Source: Halarchaeum grantii (lineage in GTDB: Archaea; Halobacteriota; Halobacteria; Halobacteriales; Halobacteriaceae). Taken from it: DNA of 64,000 bases. Both the position numbers and the translations under genes were made by a program. This document shows, piece after piece, positions 967 to 17,015 of this stretch (within the stretch, counting starts at the first letter, position 1; each line of letters starts with the position of its first letter). Below the pieces are notes generated by a model, which was not told the DNA's origin, made no database searches, and saw only the letters and a program-made list of their open reading frames with translations. Location: the NCBI RefSeq assembly GCF_014647455.2, contig NZ_BMPF01000009.1, forward strand, positions 1 through 64,000, given 5' to 3'.

Positions 967-1317
967 TTGTCTTGATGTTCACCTGATCGATAGTGAAGTA
1001 CAGCCCCCACAACTCAGCTGCCCGCAGAGGAATCCACCGAACGAAAGACAATGACGGTGCGTTCGAACTTGACGTTTCGTTAACCGAGTGCGTCGAACCA
1101 GGGACAGTGACCGAATCCGCTACGATTCGCTCTGCGACGCCTGACTTAATGCAACATCTGACCTCGGTGCTGGCCCACCGGATAATCAGTCGAATATCAC
1201 TTAACCCAGTGGTTTAGGGACTTTTTTCAAATCTATGTAGAGTAGTGTTCACAAAAACCATCCACCTCTCGCTGTTACAGGAAAAGCTGTAGGCACTATC
1301 CGTGAGAGAATACCCCT

Positions 1318-1503
1318 ACGACCGTGTAGTAGAAACCTAGAGTAGAATTGAAACCAAACCACTAATCGTTGAGAGTGAGAAGCATACGGTAGTCGCAGTG
1401 CGGTAGATACCCAAATCGGGATTGAAACGCGGTGATGACAGTCGTTGCTGTGACCGGCTTGCAGCTGCCGCAGTGTAGTAGAAACTCATACCAGGACCAA
1501 AAA
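1318..1503 (+). CRISPR. Decayed CRISPR with 37-bp repeats
   Basis: Three repeat-like units start at 1318, 1392 and 1467, spacings of 74 and 75. Each is 37 bp, separated by 37-38 bp of unrelated sequence. Shared parts are a GTAGTAGAAAC-type block (GGTAGATAC in the middle unit) and, in the first two, an ATTGAAAC 3' end. Pairwise identity is only about two thirds by eye, and the third unit has lost the ATTGAAAC end, so the array is degenerate. The size and the ATTGAAAC end are typical of type I-D arrays and differ from the 30-bp array at 6249-8356. No cas gene is adjacent. Confidence 0.5.
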
Positions 1504-2971: not shown

Positions 2972-3023
2972 GATGGTGGCGACCGAGGAAATTATTAACT
3001 ATTTGTGCGACTGACTATTGTCT

Positions 3024-3419
3024 ATGAGTACCCTCCCCTCAATCCGTCTGACCGTCACGACTTTTGTGTATTTTACCGCAATCTCTCTCGGTGCTGGTAT
3101 CTTAGTGGTAAACCCTGCTCGGTTCCTTCTTATTGTACCACTTATTACCGGTGCTATTCTCCTCGGTCACGCTGTAAAAACTGCCAATCTCAACAAACTT
3201 GGATACGCAACGATGTGGTTATGGGCTGGTGTGATCGCCCTCGTCGTGATTGGAGCGGTAGCTGAGATTGTTCTTCAAGCAGATGTGCCTCCGTTAGCCG
3301 AAATCCCAGTTGCTCGCGTTCTTGGTACGTTCAGCCTTATCGCCATCGTTGTCGCAGCATACATACATGGTATACAGAGAGCAACAATAGAAGGGAGTCA
3401 ACGGTCAATTACAACCTAA
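3024..3419 (+). CDS. Small four-span membrane protein, possible transposon passenger
   Basis: The ORF encodes 131 residues with four predicted membrane segments: about residues 8-28, 30-45, 62-82 and 97-117. A short charged loop containing KTANLNK separates the second and third. It lies between the nested IS6 and the IS5-type transposase, inside the element bounded by perfect inverted repeats. It may thus be cargo, or host DNA trapped when the ends were assembled. No family is recognised. Base composition resembles the AT-richer accessory DNA. Confidence 0.6.
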   Translation: MSTLPSIRLTVTTFVYFTAISLGAGILVVNPARFLLIVPLITGAILLGHAVKTANLNKLGYATMWLWAGVIALVVIGAVAEIVLQADVPPLAEIPVARVLGTFSLIAIVVAAYIHGIQRATIEGSQRSITT

Positions 3420-3442: not shown

Positions 3443-4266
3443 TTAGATAGCGACTTCAACATTTCTGACCGCCGCTTTCAAAACGAGTTCTCGGAACTCC
3501 CCAAACCACGTTCGAGCCCGGAGTGTGTCTCCATACCGCTGCTTAAGTGCGAAAAAGACGGACTCCACCACTGACAGTCGGTGATAGATGTCATCGTTAT
3601 GCCGAGCATTGTGAGCCACGTCAAGTGGAGAGAACTCTCGGTGTTTAATTACTGGTCGGATGTTAGCCTCCCGAAGTTCTTGACGCAGGTCGTCCCAGTC
3701 ATCCCCTTTGTCAGCGGTAACGGTCTGTAAGTGGCTAAGATTTCGTGTGAGTACCTGCTGCCCGACGTGGGTATCGTGCGGCTGCCTCGTCGAACAGTGA
3801 ATATCCAAGACAATACTGGTTTCGCAGTCTATCAACGCTGTCGTCTTCACCGATTTGAAGGTGTAGTCTGTCCGGTTTGCGTAGTGATGGCTGGCTGAAT
3901 GACGGTCGAAGCCAGTTGCATCGATGGCCTGCACTTCTCCGGTATCGTGAAGATCAGCGGAAAGCCGAAGAAGAACTCTCTAGACAGACATCTTGAGCTG
4001 CTGTTTCCGTGCGCAGACGGTTGTGAAGTCCGGCAGATCGCTCGACCTGAGATCCATCTTCTTGATGATTCCGTGCATTTCGTGAAGCACATCGAGGAGC
4101 CGTCGATACGGAAGGTCAAGGTATTCGCGTAGGCCGTGGATCGCAACGATTACCCAGTCGGCGTAGCCGCCGTCACCCTTCTTGACTGCTGGTGAAGGCT
4201 CGTCAGAGACTGAGCGTTTTGCCAGTGTTACGAGGCGATCTGTGAAGTGCGAGAGACGAGAAGACT
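3443..4266 (-). pseudogene. IS5-family transposase with an in-frame amber codon
   Basis: On the minus strand one reading frame runs from about 4266 to the stop at 3443. It encodes a typical haloarchaeal IS5-family transposase: an N-terminal part with DWVIVAIHGLREYLDLPYRR, then DFTTVCARKQQLKMSV. It next meets a TAG (about 3990), then RVLLRLSADLHD, QAIDATGFDRHSASHHY, LQTVTADKGDDWDDLR and the C-terminal Glu region YHRLSVVESVFFALKQRYG. The TAG sits where a Trp would fit. No ATG is left at the 5' end. The catalytic Asp, Asp and Glu motifs are still present, so decay is recent. Confidence 0.8.
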
Positions 4267-5942: not shown

Positions 5943-6248
5943 GGGACACTTCACTCCTTTCCCCCAATACAGCGACCGGCACGAGTCACTCTCAACGGTC
6001 TCTCCTCCCTGTGGAAATCGGCGGTTACCCAACCGTATGAGCTCTCTCTGATCGGTGTGACGCGACGGTTCGCCGCGCGCGGCTGGACAGGGGCCGATGC
6101 GTCAAGCGCTCTCGCTCGCGCCCCACGGGGGCGCGAGGCGAAGGCGCGAAGGCGAGCGCGCCGAGCCGACGCGGGAGCCGCGTCACGGCACACCACCAAC
6201 GAGTTGCGCGAGCGCGGTCCCGACGAACCACGATGCAGCTCCGAGAGC

Positions 6249-8356
6249 GCTTCAACCCGACTAGGGTTCGGCTGTAACGCGACCATGGCGACGAGGATAT
6301 ACCACGCGTCGAGGCTTCAACCCGACTAGGGTTCGGCTGTAACAACGTCCGACCGTGACCCGCGGGACGAGTCTCCGTTCTCGCTTCAACCCGACTAGGG
6401 TTCGGCTGTAACGACACTTCAGATTCACGGACGGCGGCGGACACGGCCCGCTTCAACCCGACTAGGGTTCGGCTGTAACGGGAGTACTCCTCCGCCACGT
6501 CCGCGTCCGTCGTCTCGCTTCAACCCGACTAGGGTTCGGCTGTAACCCAGCGTCGAGGACGGACGCCTGTGGTTCTCCGGCATGCTTCAACCCGACTAGG
6601 GTTCGGCTGTAACAGCCTCGGAGAGCTCGCCCGCATGGTAGACTTCAACGACGAGCTTCAACCCGACTAGGGTTCGGCTGTAACCGAACGGACGGATAAG
6701 GCGTGGAGGCGGAGGCGCGTCGAGCTTCAACCCGACTAGGGTTCGGCTGTAACCTCTCTCTCCACTACGTCGAACGCCTCGACGACCCGGCTTCAACCCG
6801 ACTAGGGTTCGGCTGTAACGTTGCTAGCGCGGTTTCTTTATTCAGTTTGGAGCGTGCTTCAACCCGACTAGGGTTCGGCTGTAACTCGGCGGAGGTGGCG
6901 ACTGATGCCAGCGACCGATAAGCTTCAACCCGACTAGGGTTCGGCTGTAACGGGGAGCTCCGTGCTCTCCGGGGCTCAGGATCTCGTGCTTCAACCCGAC
7001 TAGGGTTCGGCTGTAACTTCCGTGTTCTCCGAGTGGTATGGGTCGCGTAGAAGGCTTCAACCCGACTAGGGTTCGGCTGTAACAACCGGCGACCTCGGAG
7101 ACGACGCGGTTACGACCGCGCTTCAACCCGACTAGGGTTCGGCTGTAACCCTCGTAGTAGACGACGAGGTGATTCTCTCCGTCCTCGCTTCAACCCGACT
7201 AGGGTTCGGCTGTAACACCTCATCGAGGATATTCAGGTTCAGTTCAACGGGCTTCAACCCGACTAGGGTTCGGCTGTAACGGCTCGTAGATCACGCCCTT
7301 CGCGGTGCCGCCGATGCTGCTTCAACCCGACTAGGGTTCGGCTGTAACATGACTTTCGACGGACCCATCAACACGACCTACGGTGCTTCAACCCGACTAG
7401 GGTTCGGCTGTAACCAGCTGAGTGATGCCCTCGTCGTCCCAGCGGAGCGTGCTTCAACCCGACTAGGGTTCGGCTGTAACACCAGCGGAGTCGTATATTA
7501 CTACCGGACCGATAACAGCTTCAACCCGACTAGGGTTCGGCTGTAACCGTCCACGCGGACGTGCGGGGAGGCACCGTCCTCGAGCTTCAACCCGACTAGG
7601 GTTCGGCTGTAACGGCGACAGTCGGAGCCGCAGGAGCCGGCTGCTGCCGACGCTTCAACCCGACTAGGGTTCGGCTGTAACGCGTCGTCGCCCTCGTTGA
7701 TACGGAGCGGCTGCGGGCTTCAACCCGACTAGGGTTCGGCTGTAACCCTCGACGGCCACCGGCTCGCCGCTCTGCGGGGCGCTTCAACCCGACTAGGGTT
7801 CGGCTGTAACACTAACTGTCCGTAGGCGTTCCGTCCGACCTCTACCAGCTTCAACCCGACTAGGGTTCGGCTGTAACTGGTCCTCGGTCCACTCGTGGCC
7901 GCAGCGGTGGCAGCGGCTTCAACCCGACTAGGGTTCGGCTGTAACTAGAGCCGTCCAGCTTCTCCCCGTTCGAGTCGCGGCTTCAACCCGACTAGGGTTC
8001 GGCTGTAACACTGTCCGACGTGCGGATGGACGCAGGACGTGAACGCTTCAACCCGACTAGGGTTCGGCTGTAACGCGGCGACAACGGCGGCAACGACTCC
8101 GGGGCGACCTGGGGCGACCTTCAAGCTTCAACCCGACTAGGGTTCGGCTGTAACCGTTCATCGACGAGCAGGACGTTCCTGCCGGCGACCCGCTTCAACC
8201 CGACTAGGGTTCGGCTGTAACCCGCGACGACGCTGTAAACCGCGTCACCTCCCTTCATCGCTTCAACCCGACTAGGGTTCGGCTGTAACAGGCCGACCTC
8301 CGCGTCTACTTCTCCGTCTCGGACGAGCTTCAACCCGACTAGGGTTCGGCTGTAAC
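6249..8356 (-). CRISPR. CRISPR array: 32 identical 30-bp repeats, 31 spacers
   Basis: The repeat on the plus strand begins GCTTCAACCCGACTAGG and ends GTTCGGCTGTAAC. On the minus strand it therefore begins GTTACAGCCGAAC and ends GTTGAAGC, the usual orientation and end of haloarchaeal type I-B repeats. I count 32 copies starting at 6249, 6314, 6383 and so on to 8327, with no substitutions seen. Spacers are 34-41 bp, except the one at 8075-8124. That spacer is 50 bp because GGGGCGACCT is duplicated in tandem at 8101-8120. The strand given is inferred from the repeat end. No cas gene lies within the window next to the array. Confidence 0.97.
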
Positions 8357-8573
8357 CATGGCCTGTTCGGCGGCCACAGCGCTGCTTCACTGTGGATCCA
8401 CATCAGTATTTTCGTCGACCGGCAATTCCGGGTGAACCCCCGGGGGGTCGACGACGAAACAAGAGGGGGTGTGTTGAATAGCGTGCTCTTCAGTCGGTAC
8501 TCATCGGATGCACGCACAGTAACTCTAACAGCAAGAACTGGACGACCTCCGAACCGGGGAGAGCCTGGGTTGG
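8357..8573 (-). promoter_or_regulatory. Candidate CRISPR leader
   Basis: If the array is transcribed on the minus strand, the leader must lie here, between the last plus-strand repeat and the stop of the gene at 8574. The stretch has no ORF of its own. It contains a GC-rich palindrome around the CCCCCGGGGG at about 8438 and a more AT-rich piece on either side. The opposite flank (6000-6248) is very GC-rich with CGCGAGCG-type runs, which is unlike a leader. The assignment is inference from repeat orientation. Confidence 0.45.
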
Positions 8574-9128
8574 TTAGTCGGCTTTGTGCGGCGGCTCTGT
8601 GGTGTCGTCGCAGTTGTGTGCGACGATTCGCTCGGGAAGACCGACGACGCCACAGACAGTGCATTCTGCAAGCCGAGTCTGCTCGGTCGTACTCAATGCT
8701 GTCTCGACGTCGTAGAGTCGGTTGGCGAGTGCGAGTAGGCGGTCGGCTGCCTCTCCGCCTCCCTGTGCGGCCGGTTGGGGTTGGATGACGACGGGGAATG
8801 TTTCGACGCCGCCACCCCAGAGACACGACGGCAGCACCGTACTCGAATCCTGGTGTTGGACGGCCTCATACGTTCGAACCACGACGTCGCGAGTCCTGGG
8901 TTGGACGTACTCGACGGCGAGCTCGCCCGCGTAGTAAAACGCAGACCCGTGCCGAATCGGCCCCGACCGAATCGACGTCGGCGCAAACCGCACCCGAACC
9001 GCATAGTAGTCTATGCCGTGTCCGTCTTCACGGCCGCCGTGCGCAGCCCAATTCCCCGGCAGATCAAACGACTCCACACACTCCACGCTGTCGATACCGT
9101 TTTCTGACTCTGGTCGCGTAGTAGCCAT
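8574..9128 (-). CDS. Haloarchaeal protein of unknown function with C-terminal zinc-binding motif
   Basis: The product has 184 residues. It has a mixed alpha/beta N-terminal part (GIDYYAVRVRF, then SAFYYAGELAVEYVQPRTRD, a likely beta sheet) and a C-terminal LAECTVCGVVG...HNCD stretch whose Cys and His residues could bind zinc. I do not recognise the family. It ends just beyond the CRISPR leader. Two palindromes with TAGACG arms lie 85-140 bp upstream of its start, next to the winged-helix gene, so that regulator may control it. Confidence 0.7.
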   Translation of the reverse strand: MATTRPESENGIDSVECVESFDLPGNWAAHGGREDGHGIDYYAVRVRFAPTSIRSGPIRHGSAFYYAGELAVEYVQPRTRDVVVRTYEAVQHQDSSTVLPSCLWGGGVETFPVVIQPQPAAQGGGEAADRLLALANRLYDVETALSTTEQTRLAECTVCGVVGLPERIVAHNCDDTTEPPHKAD

Positions 9129-9213
9129 TGGTCGTAGTCACCAGACGAAGACCAGCTCCGGTGTGCCAGCACCGGGGCATTCTACCGCGAAAATGCCCGA
9201 TGAGCCAGTGCTC

Positions 9214-9233
9214 CGTCTACTCTACGGTAGACG
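9214..9233. promoter_or_regulatory. Palindrome CGTCTAC-N6-GTAGACG
   Basis: CGTCTAC (9214-9220) is repeated inverted as GTAGACG (9227-9233). It is upstream of the minus-strand gene starting at 9128 and shares the GTCTA/TAGAC theme with the perfect palindrome at 9251. It is probably a second operator of the same regulator. Confidence 0.45.
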
Positions 9234-9250
9234 CTAGGTCCACTTAGTAA

Positions 9251-9268
9251 TTTCGTCTATAGACGAAA
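9251..9268. promoter_or_regulatory. Perfect 18-bp palindrome, candidate operator
   Basis: TTTCGTCTATAGACGAAA reads the same on both strands. It lies between the stop of the winged-helix gene (9270) and the promoter region of the gene starting at 9128. A half-copy, TTTCGTCTATT, occurs at 9643-9653, about 70 bp upstream of the winged-helix gene's own start. Sites near both genes suggest autoregulation. Confidence 0.55.
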
Positions 9269-9269
9269 A

Positions 9270-9575
9270 TTAATTGACTCGGTCTCGTCCCTCATCGGTG
9301 ATGTAGTAGTAGGATCGCCTGCTACTCGCGTCTTCAGGAAGTGGTTGAATTTCGCCTTGATCAAGCGCGTCCTTATTACACCGCATTACAAGACCTGCCT
9401 CCAAGAGCCGCTTCAAAATGTTCTGAACGGTCCGGTATCCGAAGGTGATACTCCGTTCGACTTTCAGTCCACGGAAGATAGCCTTCGGTGGGAGAGCAAT
9501 CCCATGGGATGCGAGGAAATCTAGTACTTCGTTCTCGCGATCCCGTGGTGGCATACATCCGTCTTCACCAGTCAC
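9270..9575 (-). CDS. Winged-helix transcriptional regulator
   Basis: This 101-residue protein has the order helix (ENEVLDFLASHG), helix (LPPKAIFRGL), recognition helix (TFGYRTVQNILKRLLEAGLV), then a wing with a long polar loop ending in SYYYITDEGR. The Y-x-x-T-D-x-G-R ending is typical of PadR/ArsR-like haloarchaeal regulators of phage and plasmid origin. In-frame starts exist at 9575 and 9554; the second loses nothing from the domain. A TTTCGTCTAT half-site upstream and the perfect palindrome downstream point to autoregulation. Confidence 0.75.
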   Translation of the reverse strand: MTGEDGCMPPRDRENEVLDFLASHGIALPPKAIFRGLKVERSITFGYRTVQNILKRLLEAGLVMRCNKDALDQGEIQPLPEDASSRRSYYYITDEGRDRVN

Positions 9576-10154
9576 GGTGTTATTTTCACCGGAATTGACG
9601 CTGTTGTTTTATTGGCGAATAAACGCGCTTCTAAGCGCATACTTTCGTCTATTAGCACAACCTATTTATGCTTTCTATCACTTGGCACCAGATAAGCGAC
9701 GCTACGAGGCGAAGCAGTGTCTGTGAGAACAGCGCCGAACGGATAGGGGCCGTTCGACGCCTCACGGTGTCGCTTCGAGGAACGACATGTACGAAGACAA
9801 CTTACACGCAAAAAGAACTTCCGCCACATCGGAGACACACGGGACACGGCGCGGCGATCCTGACGGAGTCGACGCTGACCGGATTCGAGTCTACCACTCA
9901 CCATCTTCGAACGCTGCCGAGGGTGGACACCGGGCTGGTCCGCTTCCCACGCGGGGGCGTTGCGCCGTCGTGATTGCTCGCCTTACGCAGTCTGGGTGGC
10001 GACGCGACGCCGCATAACGCCACGTCCTGATCCACTAGTGTGTGCGATGGCCGCCACTCCTCGCTTCACTGGTGGTGCTTCGGGACGCTACCCGGAGTCC
10101 CACACGCGGAGTGTCGCGGTCGTCGAGACTGAATTCCCCGATCACCGTCTTCCG
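9576..10154. other. Intergenic region without a supported gene
   Basis: The first part (9576-9670) is AT-rich and holds the TTTCGTCTATT half-site and likely promoter of the minus-strand regulator. The rest is GC-rich with short open frames in several phases, none with family features. The long frame that starts at 9960 is read here as the upstream extension of the gene whose likely start is 10155. Confidence 0.4.
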
Positions 10155-10934
10155 ATGAGTACGACCCACGATACGCCGACGCTTGAATCGCTCGCCGACC
10201 GCATCAGCCAACTCGAGGCCGAGTTAGAGGCCGAACGCGACGCCCGCGAAGAACTCGAGGAGCGCGTCGCCGACCTCGAGACAGAGAACCAGATCCTCCG
10301 CTCGCGCGTTGATGGGCTGCACACGACGACGGACAAGACCGAAGCCCGGCTCAACGAACTGCAAGCGCGTGAACTCGAGAAGGGCGCACACCTCCGGAAA
10401 GAACACGTCTACCCCTGGACGGACGACCTCGACGTCGCGACCGGCCGCCTCGAGACCTTCGAGAAAGACCACGGCACCTTCATGCGGATTCCCGACGCCG
10501 ACGACACCCTCAACCGTGGTGGAGCTACCCAGCTCGCTGAGCAGGACCTCCTCCCCATCCAGCAACTCGCCCGCCTTGACGACGATATGCTCCGTGGGAC
10601 TGTCGACAACCTCCCCAGTCGCCTCGCTGCTAAGGCTTGGGCCGAACGCCACGAGGATACCGGCCTCTGGCAGCACGGCAGTGGTGACGTCCGCGAATAC
10701 ATCGACGCGAGTGACCTCCGGCATTGGATCCGCCGCGAAGAGTCCGGTATCTCTGAGGCCTACGCGAAAAAACTCGTCTCCCGCACCATCGACGCCCTCC
10801 AAGAATACACTCATCATCGGCTCACCGTCATGAAACGCCGACGTCGGAAAGACGGCCTCCAGTACAAGGAACGCCGCATCGTCTTGAGAAGTGACGTCGA
10901 GGTTCCCGGCGAAACCACCCAGAGACAACAGTAG
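10155..10934 (+). CDS. Coiled-coil plasmid protein of unknown function
   Basis: The chosen start at 10155 (MSTTHDTPTLESL) gives 259 residues. The open frame continues upstream to 9960, but that extension has a different, Arg/Pro-rich composition. Residues about 8-75 form a heptad-like coiled coil (ADRISQLEAELEAERDAREE). The central part is acidic. The C-terminal third (about 175-245) is basic, with KKLVSRTIDALQ and KRRRRKDG, and may be a DNA-binding helix bundle. Its place upstream of the AbrB/restriction genes suggests a plasmid accessory role. I do not recognise a named family. Confidence 0.65.
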   Translation: MSTTHDTPTLESLADRISQLEAELEAERDAREELEERVADLETENQILRSRVDGLHTTTDKTEARLNELQARELEKGAHLRKEHVYPWTDDLDVATGRLETFEKDHGTFMRIPDADDTLNRGGATQLAEQDLLPIQQLARLDDDMLRGTVDNLPSRLAAKAWAERHEDTGLWQHGSGDVREYIDASDLRHWIRREESGISEAYAKKLVSRTIDALQEYTHHRLTVMKRRRRKDGLQYKERRIVLRSDVEVPGETTQRQQ

Positions 10935-11157
10935 TCCACAGACGAAGCCGTCCCCAGGGGGCTACAGCGACACAGAACCCACAGCCACGATAGGACGACA
11001 GGACGGCACAGAATCGGACTGCGGTGTTCGTGTGGGTTGCGTAGTCGTGGGTCTCTCTTCTCGAACGGTGTCGACGGTGGTAGACCAACGACTCCTGACT
11101 TGTGGTTCTCTGTGGACGACGGCTGTCACCGGGCCCTAGGTAACCTGCTAAGTTTGT

Positions 11158-11200
11158 ATAGTCTAGACAGTCTACTGTGGCACTATTAGGACAGTAGACG
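11158..11200. promoter_or_regulatory. Inverted repeat CAGTCTACTGT / ACAGTAGACGG
   Basis: The arms CAGTCTACTGT and ACAGTAGACGG are about 12 nt apart and again carry the GTCTAC/GTAGAC theme seen at 9214-9268. The site is roughly 150 bp upstream of the AbrB/restriction operon. It may bind the regulator encoded at 9270-9575. Confidence 0.4.
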
Positions 11201-11355
11201 GTTTCGTCGTCCACGATCTCGCCACGGTTAGCTATGCTGTCGGGCTGGCCAGTGACTGCTTATTCGACGCTACGGATTTGGATTCTACTCAAGCCCTGCT
11301 TGGTTAGTCTAGGTAAAGACTATATTATTGGGCTGAACAATCTCCGGTATTACCA

Positions 11356-11547
11356 ATGACCCGGAAACAAGTTGGTCGAAACACAGGGAACTCCGGCCGG
11401 ATTAACGTCTCCGGGTCTGAGTTGGAAGAACTCGGCGTGGAAATCGGCGACGAAGTAGATATCGACGTCGTCGACGCGAAGGAAGTCGCACACGCCATTA
11501 TCGACAGCAAAGATTCCGAGGAATTCCTTATCGTTACCCCCGCCTAG
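11356..11547 (+). CDS. AbrB/SpoVT-like swapped-hairpin DNA-binding protein
   Basis: The 63-residue protein fits the AbrB-type swapped-hairpin fold: strand (GRINVSGSELEELGVEIGDE) followed by a second strand (VDIDVVDAKEV) and a C-terminal extension. Its gene ends three nucleotides before the restriction gene begins, so the two are almost surely cotranscribed. A TATA-like ACTATATTA lies at about 11318-11326. By analogy with small regulators in restriction operons it may control expression of the enzyme. A role as antitoxin is possible but nothing shows it. Confidence 0.75.
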   Translation: MTRKQVGRNTGNSGRINVSGSELEELGVEIGDEVDIDVVDAKEVAHAIIDSKDSEEFLIVTPA

Positions 11548-11550
11548 CGC

Positions 11551-14500
11551 ATGCAAACGGCACTCACCTACCGGACGAATCGCGACCTGTTCTCCAACCA
11601 CTACCTCGACGAGCACCTCCGCGAGACCGAAGAATGGGACGAGGTTAGCGACGACGAGATCCAAGAGGCCTACGACGACATTATGGCACTCTGGGAGCGC
11701 GAGAAGAGCACCGCTCCTAAACGGAATGAGTCCCAGCTCGAGGAGAAATTCATCCGGCCAATGTTCCGGAAACTGGGTATTCCGTTCGAAGTCGAAGAAA
11801 GCACTAGTAGGACGCAGCGCCGACCGGACTACGGGTTCTTCGAGACTGAGGAAGCAGCACGTGATGCGTTTGAACGGCGTGAGGAAGGCGGAGACTTCTA
11901 CGAGAACGCTGTTGCCGTCGCGGACGCGAAACGCTGGGGGCGCGCCCTTGACACTCGTGGGAGTGGCGAACACGAACGGGACTTCGAGAACCCCTCCTAC
12001 CAGATCCACGTCTATCTCCAAGAGACGCCAGCCGAGTGGGCCGTCCTCACCAACGGGAAGAAGTGGCGGCTCTACTACGCGCCAACCAGCCACCGTCTCG
12101 ACTCCTACTACGAGATCGACCTCCCGACCGTTCTCGAAAACGGTGACCTGGAGGACTTCAAGTACTTCTACCTCTTCTTCCGCCAAGAGGCGTTCCGCCC
12201 GGACACGAGTGGCGACTCCTTCCTCGACGACGTCTACGACCAATCGAACAGATTCGCACAGGAGCTCGGCGAGGATCTCCAAGACAACATCTATGAGGCG
12301 ATTAAGGTTCTCTCCGAGGGATTTCTCGAGTATCCCGAGAACAACCTCGATGAGGACGACCTTGACCGCATCCACGACAGCTCGCTCATCTATCTCTACC
12401 GGCTCATCTTCGTCCTCTACGCGGAGAGTGAGGGACGTGACCTCTTGGACACGAGCAACGAGATCTACGAGCAGTCCTACAGCCTCAATACACTGAAGGA
12501 GGACGTCGCCGAGGAACTCGACAGCTCGAACCCGTCCTATCGTGCGTGGCAGGACACCCTCTGGTCGCGGCTGGACGAACTTTTCAAACTCATCGACCAA
12601 GGGAGCGAGTCTCGTGGCATCCCCAAAGACGACCTCTACGTCCCTGCGTACAACGGCGGACTCTTCCGAACGAATCCAGACGAGGACGGGAGTGAAGAGG
12701 CCGTTTTCCTCGCAAACCATGAGGTCGGCGACGCGTATCTCGCTCGCGTGATCGACCTCCTTGCACGGAGTCAGACCGAGGAGGGCGGGAAGACGTTCGT
12801 TGACTACTCTTCGCTCGGCGTCCGCCACCTCGGGTCCGTCTACGAGGGACTGCTCGAGTATCAACTCCACGTCGCGGACGAGCCGCTCGCGCTTGAGGAC
12901 GGTGAGTACGTTCCCGCTGACGAGGGTGAGGACGTCGCGGTCGAGGAGGGCAAGGTCTATCTCACGACGGACGGTGGTGAGCGTAAGGCCACAGGGTCCT
13001 ACTATACGCCCGAATACGTCGTTGAGTACATCGTCGAGGAGACGCTCGGCCCGCTCGTCGACGACATCCGCGAGGACCTAGTCGCGCAGAGTGCGCGCGG
13101 TGACCAGGGGTTCGCGGAGGAGTTCGCTGAGCGCGTCTTTGAGCTCAAAGTCCTCGACCCAGCAATGGGGTCAGGGCATTTCCTCACGAGCGCGGTCGAC
13201 TACCTCGCTCGCGAGATCATCGACGCTCAGGAGAAGCAGGCTGCTCAGCAGGGTGTCGAGACGATTGACGAAGATCATGACATCAATTGGGCGCGACGGA
13301 AGGTTGCCCAGCGCTGTATCTACGGTGTCGACCTGAACCCGCTCGCCGTCGAACTGGCCAAGGTCTCGCTATGGCTGCGAACGCTCGCTGCCGAACAACC
13401 GCTCGCGTTCCTCGACCACCACCTGAAAGCTGGGAATTCACTTGTTGGCAGCGACATCAAGGACGTCCTCGCACAGGGCGAAGACGCGACGTCGGAGGGC
13501 GGACAGCTCACTCTCCAGCAGTCCTTCGACCACACGCGCCAGCAGGCCCTCGAGCACGTCATGGAGCGCTTCACCGACCTCCTCGCCATCGACAACGAGA
13601 CCCTCTCGGACATCAAGGAGATGGAGGAAGTCTACGAAGAGGTTCGAGAAGATGACCTCTATCAGCACTTGCTCGCGATGGCGAACGTACAGACAGCTGC
13701 CGAGTTCGGCCTTGACGTCCCTGACGACGCTGAGGAGCGGATGGCGGAATCCCTCCGTAGTGGGTCATGGGACGAAATTGAGAACCAGGATTGGTTCAAG
13801 AACGCGCAGGCGATGGCCGACGACGAGAGTTTCTTCCATTGGGAACTTGAGTATCCCGTCGCGTTCTACGGAGATGACGGTAAGCGATTGGATGATGCCG
13901 GCTTCGACGTCGTCATCGGGAATCCACCTTATGTTCGGATATATGGTGACCGGATCCCAGAGCAGACAGTAGAGTATTGGCGACAGAAGTACGAAGAAGT
14001 CGCCCACATGAAGTTTGATTTATATGTTCTATTCCTCGCTGAATCCATCAACCTCGTACGGTCAGGAGGACTTGTTTCTGAGATTGTACCGGACAAATTC
14101 CTAATGACACCTTATGGTGAGCCACTGCGTGAGAAAATTCTCAATGAGACAGATATCCGATCTATCGGCGACCTTCGTAATATCCGAGTCTTTGAGTCGG
14201 CGAGCGTATCGAACGTTATCCCTACCCTAGAGAAGTCAAACAAGCACTCTACTGAGTTCGAGATCCACGAGTGGATATCCGGGAATATTCAGGCTGTTGG
14301 AACTGTCCCTACCACTGCTGTAGTTTCTGACGACGATTCCTCCTTCCGACTTGAACGCCGACCCATCGATGTTCAGATATCACAAAAGATTGAGGAGCAG
14401 TCGATTCGGTTCGATGAGATATACTATTCGAACTGGGGTCTTCGGACAGGGACCGCGGAGAAAACAGAGAAGTTCGTAGTTGAGGAGAAAACAGACACCG

Positions 14501-15696
14501 AGGATGCCCATCCAATGATTCGTGGGCAAGATATCGCAGGCCGATACGTCCTTGAACAACCATCTGAGTATATAATTTATCAGCCAGAGGAGCTATACAA
14601 CCCGATGTTTCCGGAGCTCTTTGAGAATCCAAAAATTGTCTTCCGGAAAATAAGTGGGGAGGGTCTGATGGCCGTTGTCGATGAGGATGGATACTACTGC
14701 TTCTCCACACTCATTCCGTGCGTAAACCTGACCGATATCCAGGATGTCGAAAGACAGGGGATTCAGTCAGCCACGAAGAGAGCACACCAGTACGACGACC
14801 CATATTTCGTTCTCGCCTTGGTGAATTCGAACCTTCTCCATTGGTACTATCAAATCAACTTATCTGATGACCTTAGTGTCGTCCCAGGACACATTCAGCA
14901 ACTTCCGGTTTATGACGTCAACTTCGAGGGAGATAGTATTGAGAGCGAAGAGACCTTCCTCAGCTACGAACAGTACCTTCAAGGTAAACAGGGCTTAGAG
15001 CAGACGGTATCTCTTGTCAGCGATCATAGCTCATCTCACGTCTTCTACCAAGTACTTGGATTCCTTGCCGAGTCCATGATGGAGTATAACCGGAGACATA
15101 CATCACTCAACTTGGATCTTCTTGACTATCTTGGGAACTACATGGAGGGGTCGGAACTCCCAGATATCGGCCTTTTCAAACCCGCCTCCTCGAATATCCT
15201 TGACGCCACCACTGAGGAATACGAGAAGTTACGTGTTGGGGACGTGAAGACAAAGCGCGACAGACATAGCGTCACTATCTTCGCGAGGGCACGGTACAAA
15301 CCTGAAGACGAGGACGAGTTTGAGACGGATCAGTGGGGATACAGGGAGACGGACTTCTACGAGGCGTTCACGCTTACAGACCTATCTAAGGAAGAGGCAT
15401 CTCTCGTTGAGGAGTTCGTCCCGGTCGCCGTTGAGGAAGCCGATGGATTCGCGGGCTTCCGCGACAACGCGACGAAGACGAATTCCCCGATCGACCGCCT
15501 GAAGGCCATCACGCTACCCGACCCCGACGACGTCGCGGACGACCTCGAACGCTACATCGAGGTCAAAGAACGCGCCGACGAGCTCGACGAGAAGATCAAG
15601 AAGACCGACGAGCTCATCGACGAAATCGTCTACGACCTCTACGGGCTGACCGACGAGGAGATCGAGATCGTCGAAGAGGCTGTGCAGGACGACTAA
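11551..15696 (+). CDS. Fused restriction endonuclease-methyltransferase (Eco57I/type IIG-like)
   Basis: This 1381-residue protein has the order expected of type IIG enzymes. The N-terminal nuclease-like segment has RRPDYGFF (about residue 90) and VADAKRW (about 123-129), which fit a PD-(D/E)xK site. A long helical linker follows. The N6-adenine methyltransferase has YYTPEYVVEYIV (about 486), LDPAMGSGHFL (about 535, SAM binding), GVDLNPLAVELAK and IGNPPYVRI (about 790, catalytic). The C-terminal half probably holds target recognition and ends in a coiled coil (ERADELDEKIKKTDELIDE). Single-gene action is inferred: no separate specificity subunit is nearby. BREX PglX is the closest alternative, but no other BREX gene is present. 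Confidence 0.85.
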   Translation: MQTALTYRTNRDLFSNHYLDEHLRETEEWDEVSDDEIQEAYDDIMALWEREKSTAPKRNESQLEEKFIRPMFRKLGIPFEVEESTSRTQRRPDYGFFETEEAARDAFERREEGGDFYENAVAVADAKRWGRALDTRGSGEHERDFENPSYQIHVYLQETPAEWAVLTNGKKWRLYYAPTSHRLDSYYEIDLPTVLENGDLEDFKYFYLFFRQEAFRPDTSGDSFLDDVYDQSNRFAQELGEDLQDNIYEAIKVLSEGFLEYPENNLDEDDLDRIHDSSLIYLYRLIFVLYAESEGRDLLDTSNEIYEQSYSLNTLKEDVAEELDSSNPSYRAWQDTLWSRLDELFKLIDQGSESRGIPKDDLYVPAYNGGLFRTNPDEDGSEEAVFLANHEVGDAYLARVIDLLARSQTEEGGKTFVDYSSLGVRHLGSVYEGLLEYQLHVADEPLALEDGEYVPADEGEDVAVEEGKVYLTTDGGERKATGSYYTPEYVVEYIVEETLGPLVDDIREDLVAQSARGDQGFAEEFAERVFELKVLDPAMGSGHFLTSAVDYLAREIIDAQEKQAAQQGVETIDEDHDINWARRKVAQRCIYGVDLNPLAVELAKVSLWLRTLAAEQPLAFLDHHLKAGNSLVGSDIKDVLAQGEDATSEGGQLTLQQSFDHTRQQALEHVMERFTDLLAIDNETLSDIKEMEEVYEEVREDDLYQHLLAMANVQTAAEFGLDVPDDAEERMAESLRSGSWDEIENQDWFKNAQAMADDESFFHWELEYPVAFYGDDGKRLDDAGFDVVIGNPPYVRIYGDRIPEQTVEYWRQKYEEVAHMKFDLYVLFLAESINLVRSGGLVSEIVPDKFLMTPYGEPLREKILNETDIRSIGDLRNIRVFESASVSNVIPTLEKSNKHSTEFEIHEWISGNIQAVGTVPTTAVVSDDDSSFRLERRPIDVQISQKIEEQSIRFDEIYYSNWGLRTGTAEKTEKFVVEEKTDTEDAHPMIRGQDIAGRYVLEQPSEYIIYQPEELYNPMFPELFENPKIVFRKISGEGLMAVVDEDGYYCFSTLIPCVNLTDIQDVERQGIQSATKRAHQYDDPYFVLALVNSNLLHWYYQINLSDDLSVVPGHIQQLPVYDVNFEGDSIESEETFLSYEQYLQGKQGLEQTVSLVSDHSSSHVFYQVLGFLAESMMEYNRRHTSLNLDLLDYLGNYMEGSELPDIGLFKPASSNILDATTEEYEKLRVGDVKTKRDRHSVTIFARARYKPEDEDEFETDQWGYRETDFYEAFTLTDLSKEEASLVEEFVPVAVEEADGFAGFRDNATKTNSPIDRLKAITLPDPDDVADDLERYIEVKERADELDEKIKKTDELIDEIVYDLYGLTDEEIEIVEEAVQDD

Positions 15697-15970
15697 TTAC
15701 GGGGGGAGGACACGTCAAGATCGTCGACAAGCAGGATGGGTTGCGAAGACTATCGCGAGAGCTACTGTCGTCAGCTTTCTACTCCCCACAGTAGAGAGGG
15801 GTAGCCAGTCGCAACAATCCAAATACCCTCTTTTTACCCAGATTAACAGGTTGTGTGAATCGCGTATCGATCCAGTACCTCGTCAAGCAATAGTCGCAGC
15901 AACTGCATACCCCAACGTTATGTTCCGGGTATGTCCTCGAAAAAACAATCTCCACGCTGTCTATCGGTTG
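15697..15970. other. Intergenic, no gene seen
   Basis: Between the restriction gene and the DUF6735 leader I see only short frames. A TACTCCCCACAGTAGAGAGGGGTA stretch near 15780 can fold into a small hairpin and might terminate the restriction transcript. An A-rich box (CGAAAAAACAAT, about 15938-15949) sits 25-30 nt upstream of the GTTTTTGTC box and may be the promoter of the DUF6735 gene. Confidence 0.4.
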
Positions 15971-16029
15971 CGTTTTTGTCGCCCCCGAGAGGGGTGCGGG
16001 GCGTCTTGAGAGGCGTCGCGCGGAGTCGT
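15971..16029 (+). promoter_or_regulatory. Hairpin leader element, copy 1
   Basis: GTTTTTGTCG is followed by a perfect stem CCCC-GAGA-GGGG (15983-15994), then TGCGGGG and a weaker CGTC/GGCG stem-loop just before the start codon at 16030. The same order (GTTTGTC, CCCC-GRGA-GGGG, TGCGG, second stem, start codon) precedes the genes at 43278 and 47848. Related single- or double-hairpin leaders precede 38362, 44011 and 47022. The GAGA loop is a GNRA-type RNA tetraloop. Confidence 0.65.
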
Positions 16030-16671
16030 ATGGGTCATCGTGCTCTTGTTGCGTACGAACGGCCGGACGGACAGTACAACCTCCACTACTCGCATCGTGG
16101 GGCGAAGCATCTCCAGTTGAAGCAGGTACTCACGCTCGGAACGCCATTTGGAGAGGACACAAGCGAAAACGAATGGACGAAACGCGTCTACGAATGCCTG
16201 CAGACGGCCTCAGACACGTCGATTCCGACGCCTGGGCGTGGGGAGTCACGGACGCCGACGCGCGTCTGGGTTGAGCCCTGCGCCGTCAGCGTGACGCTCG
16301 AAGAGATTCGGCGAGCGTATCTTGACTACCTCGCGCATGAAGCGTTCTACGTCGTGGGCTGTGACGACTGGCAGCTGCGGGTGACGGCGTATCGCGTGTT
16401 CTGGTTTGGCTTGGCGGACGTCGCGACGACGGCGCGCCGTACGCCGACCGTCGGCCATGGTGCGTTACGCACGGTTGCGTGGCGCGACGGCGACCCAGTC
16501 AATGACGAGTATGTGCGTGGGGAGTTCGACGCGCTCAAAGCCGTCGTCGGCGATCTTCTCGATTGCGGCGTCTTCGCGAGCGACGGCGAGGCACTCGCGT
16601 ATCTCGAACGACTGTTCCGTGAGTGGAGTGCCGACGCCGACAGCCACGTCACACTACGGGAGTCACAGTAG
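16030..16671 (+). CDS. DUF6735 family protein
   Basis: The 213-residue product starts with MGHRALVAYERPDGQYNLHY, the signature opening of haloarchaeal DUF6735 proteins. The ATG at 16030 is preferred to the frame's first ATG at 15931, because the intervening codons overlap the hairpin leader and have a different composition. The middle has WVEPCAVSVTLEEIRRAYLD and a Trp/Phe-rich core. Function is unknown; the family is common on haloarchaeal plasmids. A relic of a second copy's 3' end lies at 1797-1905. Confidence 0.8.
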   Translation: MGHRALVAYERPDGQYNLHYSHRGAKHLQLKQVLTLGTPFGEDTSENEWTKRVYECLQTASDTSIPTPGRGESRTPTRVWVEPCAVSVTLEEIRRAYLDYLAHEAFYVVGCDDWQLRVTAYRVFWFGLADVATTARRTPTVGHGALRTVAWRDGDPVNDEYVRGEFDALKAVVGDLLDCGVFASDGEALAYLERLFREWSADADSHVTLRESQ

Positions 16672-17015
16672 GGGACCCCCCACATTTCACGAGAAGTCAC
16701 CGATACATACCCCACCGTGTCCGCATAATGTGGGACTCTGTCACAGTGTAGTGTATCGAAGCGTGCGAGTCCACCCCTCCACTGTTTCCGGAGTTAGCGA
16801 TGGACCGCCCATTCTGAGCAGAGTACACGAGAGGGAGAGAGTACCGTTTCCGGTGGGGCAAGAAAACACGAGCGGGGGAACTGTATGAAGCCAAATCCTA
16901 CCACAAGACTCGTAATTGAAATTGCAGTACGGGTGCTATTTTTGTCGTACTATCTTAGTCTTTTCTCCATTATACTTCACTAATTGTGGATGGTGACGCG
17001 ACGCCTGATCGCCTG

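Follow-up and report, generated by a model that had tools for sequence, protein, structure and literature searches.

What are the three diverged 37-bp units that lie between positions 1318 and 1503 of a Halarchaeum grantii contig? They were noticed in a sequence-only reading of the first 64,000 nucleotides of this contig (the window), which took them for a decayed CRISPR array with a type I-D-like repeat, and which proposed a comparison with known 37-bp repeats and a search for targets of the two spacers. In live type I systems, Cas1, Cas2 and Cas4 insert new spacers at the leader side of the array and Cas6 cleaves the repeat transcript, and in type I-D a complex of Cas10d, Cas7d and Cas5d destroys matching DNA together with Cas3d. 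The biology of type I-D has been reviewed (PMC7694759), and a CRISPR remnant without cas genes, explained by deletion, has been described in Haloquadratum walsbyi HBSQ001 (PMC3119063).

Results

All three units lie on the forward strand, repeat 1 (leader-proximal) at 1318-1354, repeat 2 at 1392-1428 and repeat 3 (leader-distal) at 1467-1503. Their start-to-start distances of 74 and 75 bp leave two mutually different spacers of 37 bp (1355-1391) and 38 bp (1429-1466), an arrangement that agrees with the definition of a CRISPR array, in which direct repeats 23-50 bp long alternate regularly with unique spacers of about the same size. When every 37-mer of the window was scored on both strands against an external Halarchaeum repeat consensus, GTCGCAATGCGGTAGAAACCCAGAACGGGATTGAAAC, these units, with 24, 33 and 25 of 37 positions identical, were the three best matches, which confirms them as first delimited; the next match reached 21, and none of 300 mononucleotide-shuffled versions of the window gave a single score above 25. 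Summed at offsets 0/74/149 the score amounts to 82; frames in which two of the units recur reach 55, and among unrelated frames the highest sum is 47. In addition, the pattern GTAGTAGAAAC-N10-ATTGAAAC with up to three mismatches occurs at two sites in the window and at none in 100 dinucleotide shuffles. Additional decayed units were sought upstream and downstream of the three and none was found, the top score there being 17.

The block and the end that the units had been said to share hold in part. Units 1 and 3 carry the block GTGTAGTAGAAAC exactly, and unit 2 has the counterpart GTGCGGTAGATAC, but the 3' end ATTGAAAC terminates only units 1 and 2, that of unit 3 being degraded to ACCAAAAA. 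Likewise, the units are diverged from each other as claimed (23-25 of 37 positions identical in pairwise comparison) and lack the near-identity of repeats in a functional array, for which reason the array is regarded as a fossil; the middle unit, however, is nearly intact, with 33 of 37 positions shared with the Halarchaeum and Halostella I-D repeats and 35 of 37 with the repeat of the Haloferax mediterranei plasmid pHME132. This unevenness, with repeat 2 almost intact and repeats 1 and 3 not, was counted against the fossil reading, although by a hand-estimated p of about 0.08 it is not significant. The repeats did not fold better as RNA than their shuffles; folding shows a short CCC/GGG stem that is kept in repeat 2 and lost in repeats 1 and 3. 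In an Rfam search only the 30-bp array was detected and the fossil array was missed.

Neither spacer has a credible target. Searches of phages, of viral contigs with four half-spacer patterns and of plasmids returned only bacterial matches at chance level, and a single viral 19-mer match of spacer 2 does not extend into the rest of the spacer, an outcome to be expected since old, mutated spacers should fail to find their source. Thus the proposed comparison succeeded for the repeats, which strongly resemble known haloarchaeal 37-bp I-D repeats, but not for the spacers. Deletion of the cas genes through self-targeting, as proposed in Haloquadratum, was also considered as the cause of their loss and is not supported here, because the spacers match none of the I-D cas genes of the relatives that were fetched (best 23 of 37, outside the window).

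The relic is larger than the span first reported, as a cas2 pseudogene and a leader extend it to position 992. The type I-D cas2 pseudogene (992-1204, forward strand) was recognized by tblastn with Cas2 of Halarchaeum sp. CBA1220 (E 2.65e-11) as two pieces in different frames, which correspond to Cas2 residues 5-45 and 58-89, and its nucleotide alignment gives z values of 12-14 against dinucleotide shuffles. The region of the start codon is lost, internal deletions change the frame between about 1097 and 1103, an in-frame TGA stands at 1142-1144, ahead of the ancestral stop at 1202-1204, and in the N-terminal part the conserved YDV motif of Cas2 has become YSP. Between cas2 and repeat 1, directly beside the latter, lies a decayed leader (1205-1317, forward strand) that is homologous to intact leaders at five loci; it is 69-72% identical to those of four intact type I-D loci (Halarchaeum and the same-genus genomes), with z values against shuffles of 17.7 for the two Halarchaeum plasmid loci and 7.9 for Halostella. 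The relic is 66-71% identical to intact I-D loci, whereas intact loci across families are 75-81% identical to each other, and in comparison with intact loci the substitutions from G/C to A/T exceed the reverse (51 to 34, 45 to 24 and 39 to 21). From cas2 through the leader to repeat 1, spacer 1, repeat 2, spacer 2 and repeat 3, the original order has been kept, all on one strand and with native spacing. Upstream of cas2, the genes cas1, cas4, cas3d, cas5d, cas7d, cas10d, cas6 and csa3 are all gone from the site, and tblastn with the other I-D proteins within the window gave no fragment, all matches having E values above 0.2.

Intact counterparts of this arrangement are found in related haloarchaea. 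In a blastn search of plasmids, window positions 1093-1428, from the interior of cas2 through the leader to the first repeats, align with pCBA1220-02 of Halarchaeum sp. CBA1220, and the second plasmid of the pCBA1220-01/-02 pair gives the same kind of alignment. A pattern search within the order matched 15 of 392 genomes, all three same-genus genomes among them, where repeat numbers run into the hundreds, with many repeats in two of the three. By the same approach, contig 3 of Halostella pelagica (CP040680.1) was found to carry 35 repeats of the type GTCGCAAGGCGGTAGAAACCCACATCGGGATTGAAAC at a period of about 74 bp directly after cas2, the last two slightly degenerate. The intact loci with the same repeat, leader and cas2 carry csa3, cas6, Cas10d, Cas7d/Csc2, Cas5d/Csc1, Cas3d, cas4, cas1 and cas2; their subtype markers were recognized by PADLOC (Cas10d, Cas7d, Cas5d, Cas3d) and by NCBIfam (Csc2/Cas3d), and Cas2 relatives score highest with the PADLOC Cas2d model. 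An assignment of the Halostella operon to type I-B was rejected, as family searches show Cas10d/Cas7d.

The claim of type I-D is therefore upheld, since this repeat family, leader and cas2 adjoin Cas10d, Cas7d, Cas5d and Cas3d genes in intact relatives. The relic belongs to I-D by the lineage of its repeat, leader and cas2, and is a relic-only member, the signature genes cas10d (Csc3), cas7d (Csc2), cas5d (Csc1) and Cas3d being absent from the window; the subtype is thus supported by association, which is consistent in every locus typed. No match was obtained between the sequences flanking the relic and those beside the I-D loci of the same-genus genomes, which leaves vertical descent of the site unsupported. 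The same-genus genomes hold a second, distant I-D effector set, with Cas7d 27-29% identical to that of CBA1220; Cas1d, Cas2d and the type of repeat are the same. The two effector modules (6084-14804 and 8228-16113 of the compared loci, Cas7d about 27-29% identical) go with one type of cas1, cas2, leader and 37-bp repeat, and in one of them a 146-aa protein is split off that matches the C-terminal part of Cas10d. Judged from these comparisons, two effector modules with a common adaptation part would represent module exchange within I-D.

Cas1 was absent from the Halarchaeum grantii genome in a search whose controls matched in Haloferax volcanii and in three same-genus genomes, each of which has two Cas1 genes; with cas2 a pseudogene, the pair cas1 and cas2 of a working system is lacking. 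Cas6 (PF01881) and the I-B Cas7 (PF05107) were likewise absent, with positive H. volcanii controls. PF10040 was discarded as a Cas6 probe, being uninformative because its control gives no match in a haloarchaeon. Cas7d of the CBA1220 type was not found either, but this probe matched even the same-genus I-D effectors, 27-29% identical, only weakly (E 1e-5 to 1e-7), and the argument for absence consequently rests on Cas1 and Cas6. All these searches cover an assembly of 13 contigs that is 96.8% complete and, owing to this incompleteness, partner cas genes of the fossil may possibly lie on a missing plasmid or an unassembled piece.

The 30-bp array on the same contig (6249-8356, Rfam CRISPR-DR24) comprises 32 repeats, all identical, and 31 unique spacers, in agreement with the earlier claim that the fossil is of a second CRISPR type on the contig that bears this array. 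It is apparently an orphan but undecayed, Cas1, Cas6 and the I-B Cas7 not being found in the genome. Another contig (C3, 236383-236478; 8384-8479 of the fetched stretch) carries a remnant with two repeats of the 30-bp type, which has the leader motif ATTTTCGTCGACC...CCGGGGGGTCGA in common with the array. The fossil itself is flanked by IS240-type (IS6 family) transposases, a decayed copy at 439-675 and a longer one with an IS240-type DDE domain at 2314-2967, and another DDE transposase piece is found at 3443-3934. Positions 1705-1928 are 73% identical to 16522-16751, at the end of a DUF6735 gene, and are on this resemblance probably a gene fragment. A 1381-aa protein similar to Eco57I/MmeI restriction-methylases is encoded at 11551-15696 of the contig.

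Discussion

We conclude, with a probability of roughly 0.96, that positions 992-1503 are what is left of a haloarchaeal type I-D CRISPR-Cas locus at its adaptation end. The diverged repeats, the cas2 pseudogene, the decayed leader and the cas genes not found bear out the idea of a fossil array. A repeat of another kind with a chance resemblance to a CRISPR, such as IS ends or a MITE family, might be suspected from the IS transposase remnants nearby (439-675, 2314-2967 and 3443-3934); nevertheless, this is already refuted by the collinearity of the repeat, the leader and cas2 with intact CRISPR-Cas loci, and the patterns used turned up no further copies in the genome, unlike what is seen for an IS or a MITE, so that the probability of this reading is practically negligible. 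An origin from another subtype with 37-bp repeats, for instance I-B, deserves slightly more attention, as only cas2 and the array are left, adaptation modules are exchangeable between subtypes, and in this group two different I-D effector modules already use one type of cas2, leader and repeat. All intact loci typed with this repeat are, however, I-D, and the Cas2 relatives fit the PADLOC Cas2d model best, which makes such an origin very improbable.

The array might also be a short CRISPR that is still usable, repeat 2 being processed in trans into crRNA by Cas6 of an I-D system on another replicon. Repeat 2 does keep the CCC/GGG stem and the ATTGAAAC tag, it matches the repeats of a two-repeat array on pHME132 at 35 of 37 positions, and the assembly is not closed. 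Yet searches with working controls found neither Cas1 nor Cas6 in the genome, cas2 is broken, and the stem is gone from repeats 1 and 3, so that a single processing site would remain; we hold this explanation to be very unlikely. Hardly more can be said for the related proposal that selection keeps repeat 2 as a guide RNA for an I-D system acting in trans, on another replicon or in a mating partner, with solitary mini-arrays like that of pHME132 as a recurrent form. With the stem lost in repeats 1 and 3, cas2 broken and the cas genes missing, the type I-D relic is at present most likely inert.

With regard to how the relic arose, we may hypothesize that the cas genes disappeared, possibly by the action of IS elements, that the array shrank to three repeats through recombination between repeats, and that the remainder is decaying with a bias from G:C to A:T. 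The IS remnants on either side would suggest the route by which the operon was lost. This genome offers a clear snapshot of CRISPR loss, in which an I-D locus has been reduced to a relic and the 30-bp array still has its 32 perfect repeats although Cas1, Cas6 and Cas7 were not found, and it shows that cas2, the leader and the first repeats can be the pieces that go last. A decayed cas2 beside a leader serves as a search signature for CRISPR fossils whose repeats have diverged beyond the reach of repeat finders.

Among the closest known systems are the I-D loci of pCBA1220-01 and pCBA1220-02, which share with the relic the 37-bp repeat family, the period of about 74 bp and the order of leader and cas2, and are collinear with 1093-1428; they are, however, intact operons, whose near-identical repeats number about 40 or more, whereas the window retains a broken cas2, a leader and three diverged repeats. 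Likewise, the Halostella pelagica locus has the same gene order and a repeat, GTCGCAAGGCGGTAGAAACCCACATCGGGATTGAAAC, identical to repeat 2 at 33 of 37 positions, but it is intact, with its 35 repeats straight after cas2. The two-repeat array of H. mediterranei pHME132 (NZ_CP039142.1, at about 59.5 kb) resembles the relic in its 35 of 37 identities to repeat 2 and in its location on a plasmid with no cas genes annotated close by, and differs in having a single spacer and repeats still near the consensus; this solitary I-D-type array (3002-3109 of the fetched stretch) has repeats with 33-34 of 37 positions identical to the Halarchaeum consensus. The residual CRISPR of HBSQ001 (PMC3119063) is also haloarchaeal and consists of a leader and a small number of spacers without cas genes, but its leader hardly differs from the one in its intact relative, while in H. 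grantii leader and repeats have decayed strongly and a cas2 pseudogene has survived. The H. grantii relic is real but ordinary genome decay, a further and more decayed example of the CRISPR remnants already known.
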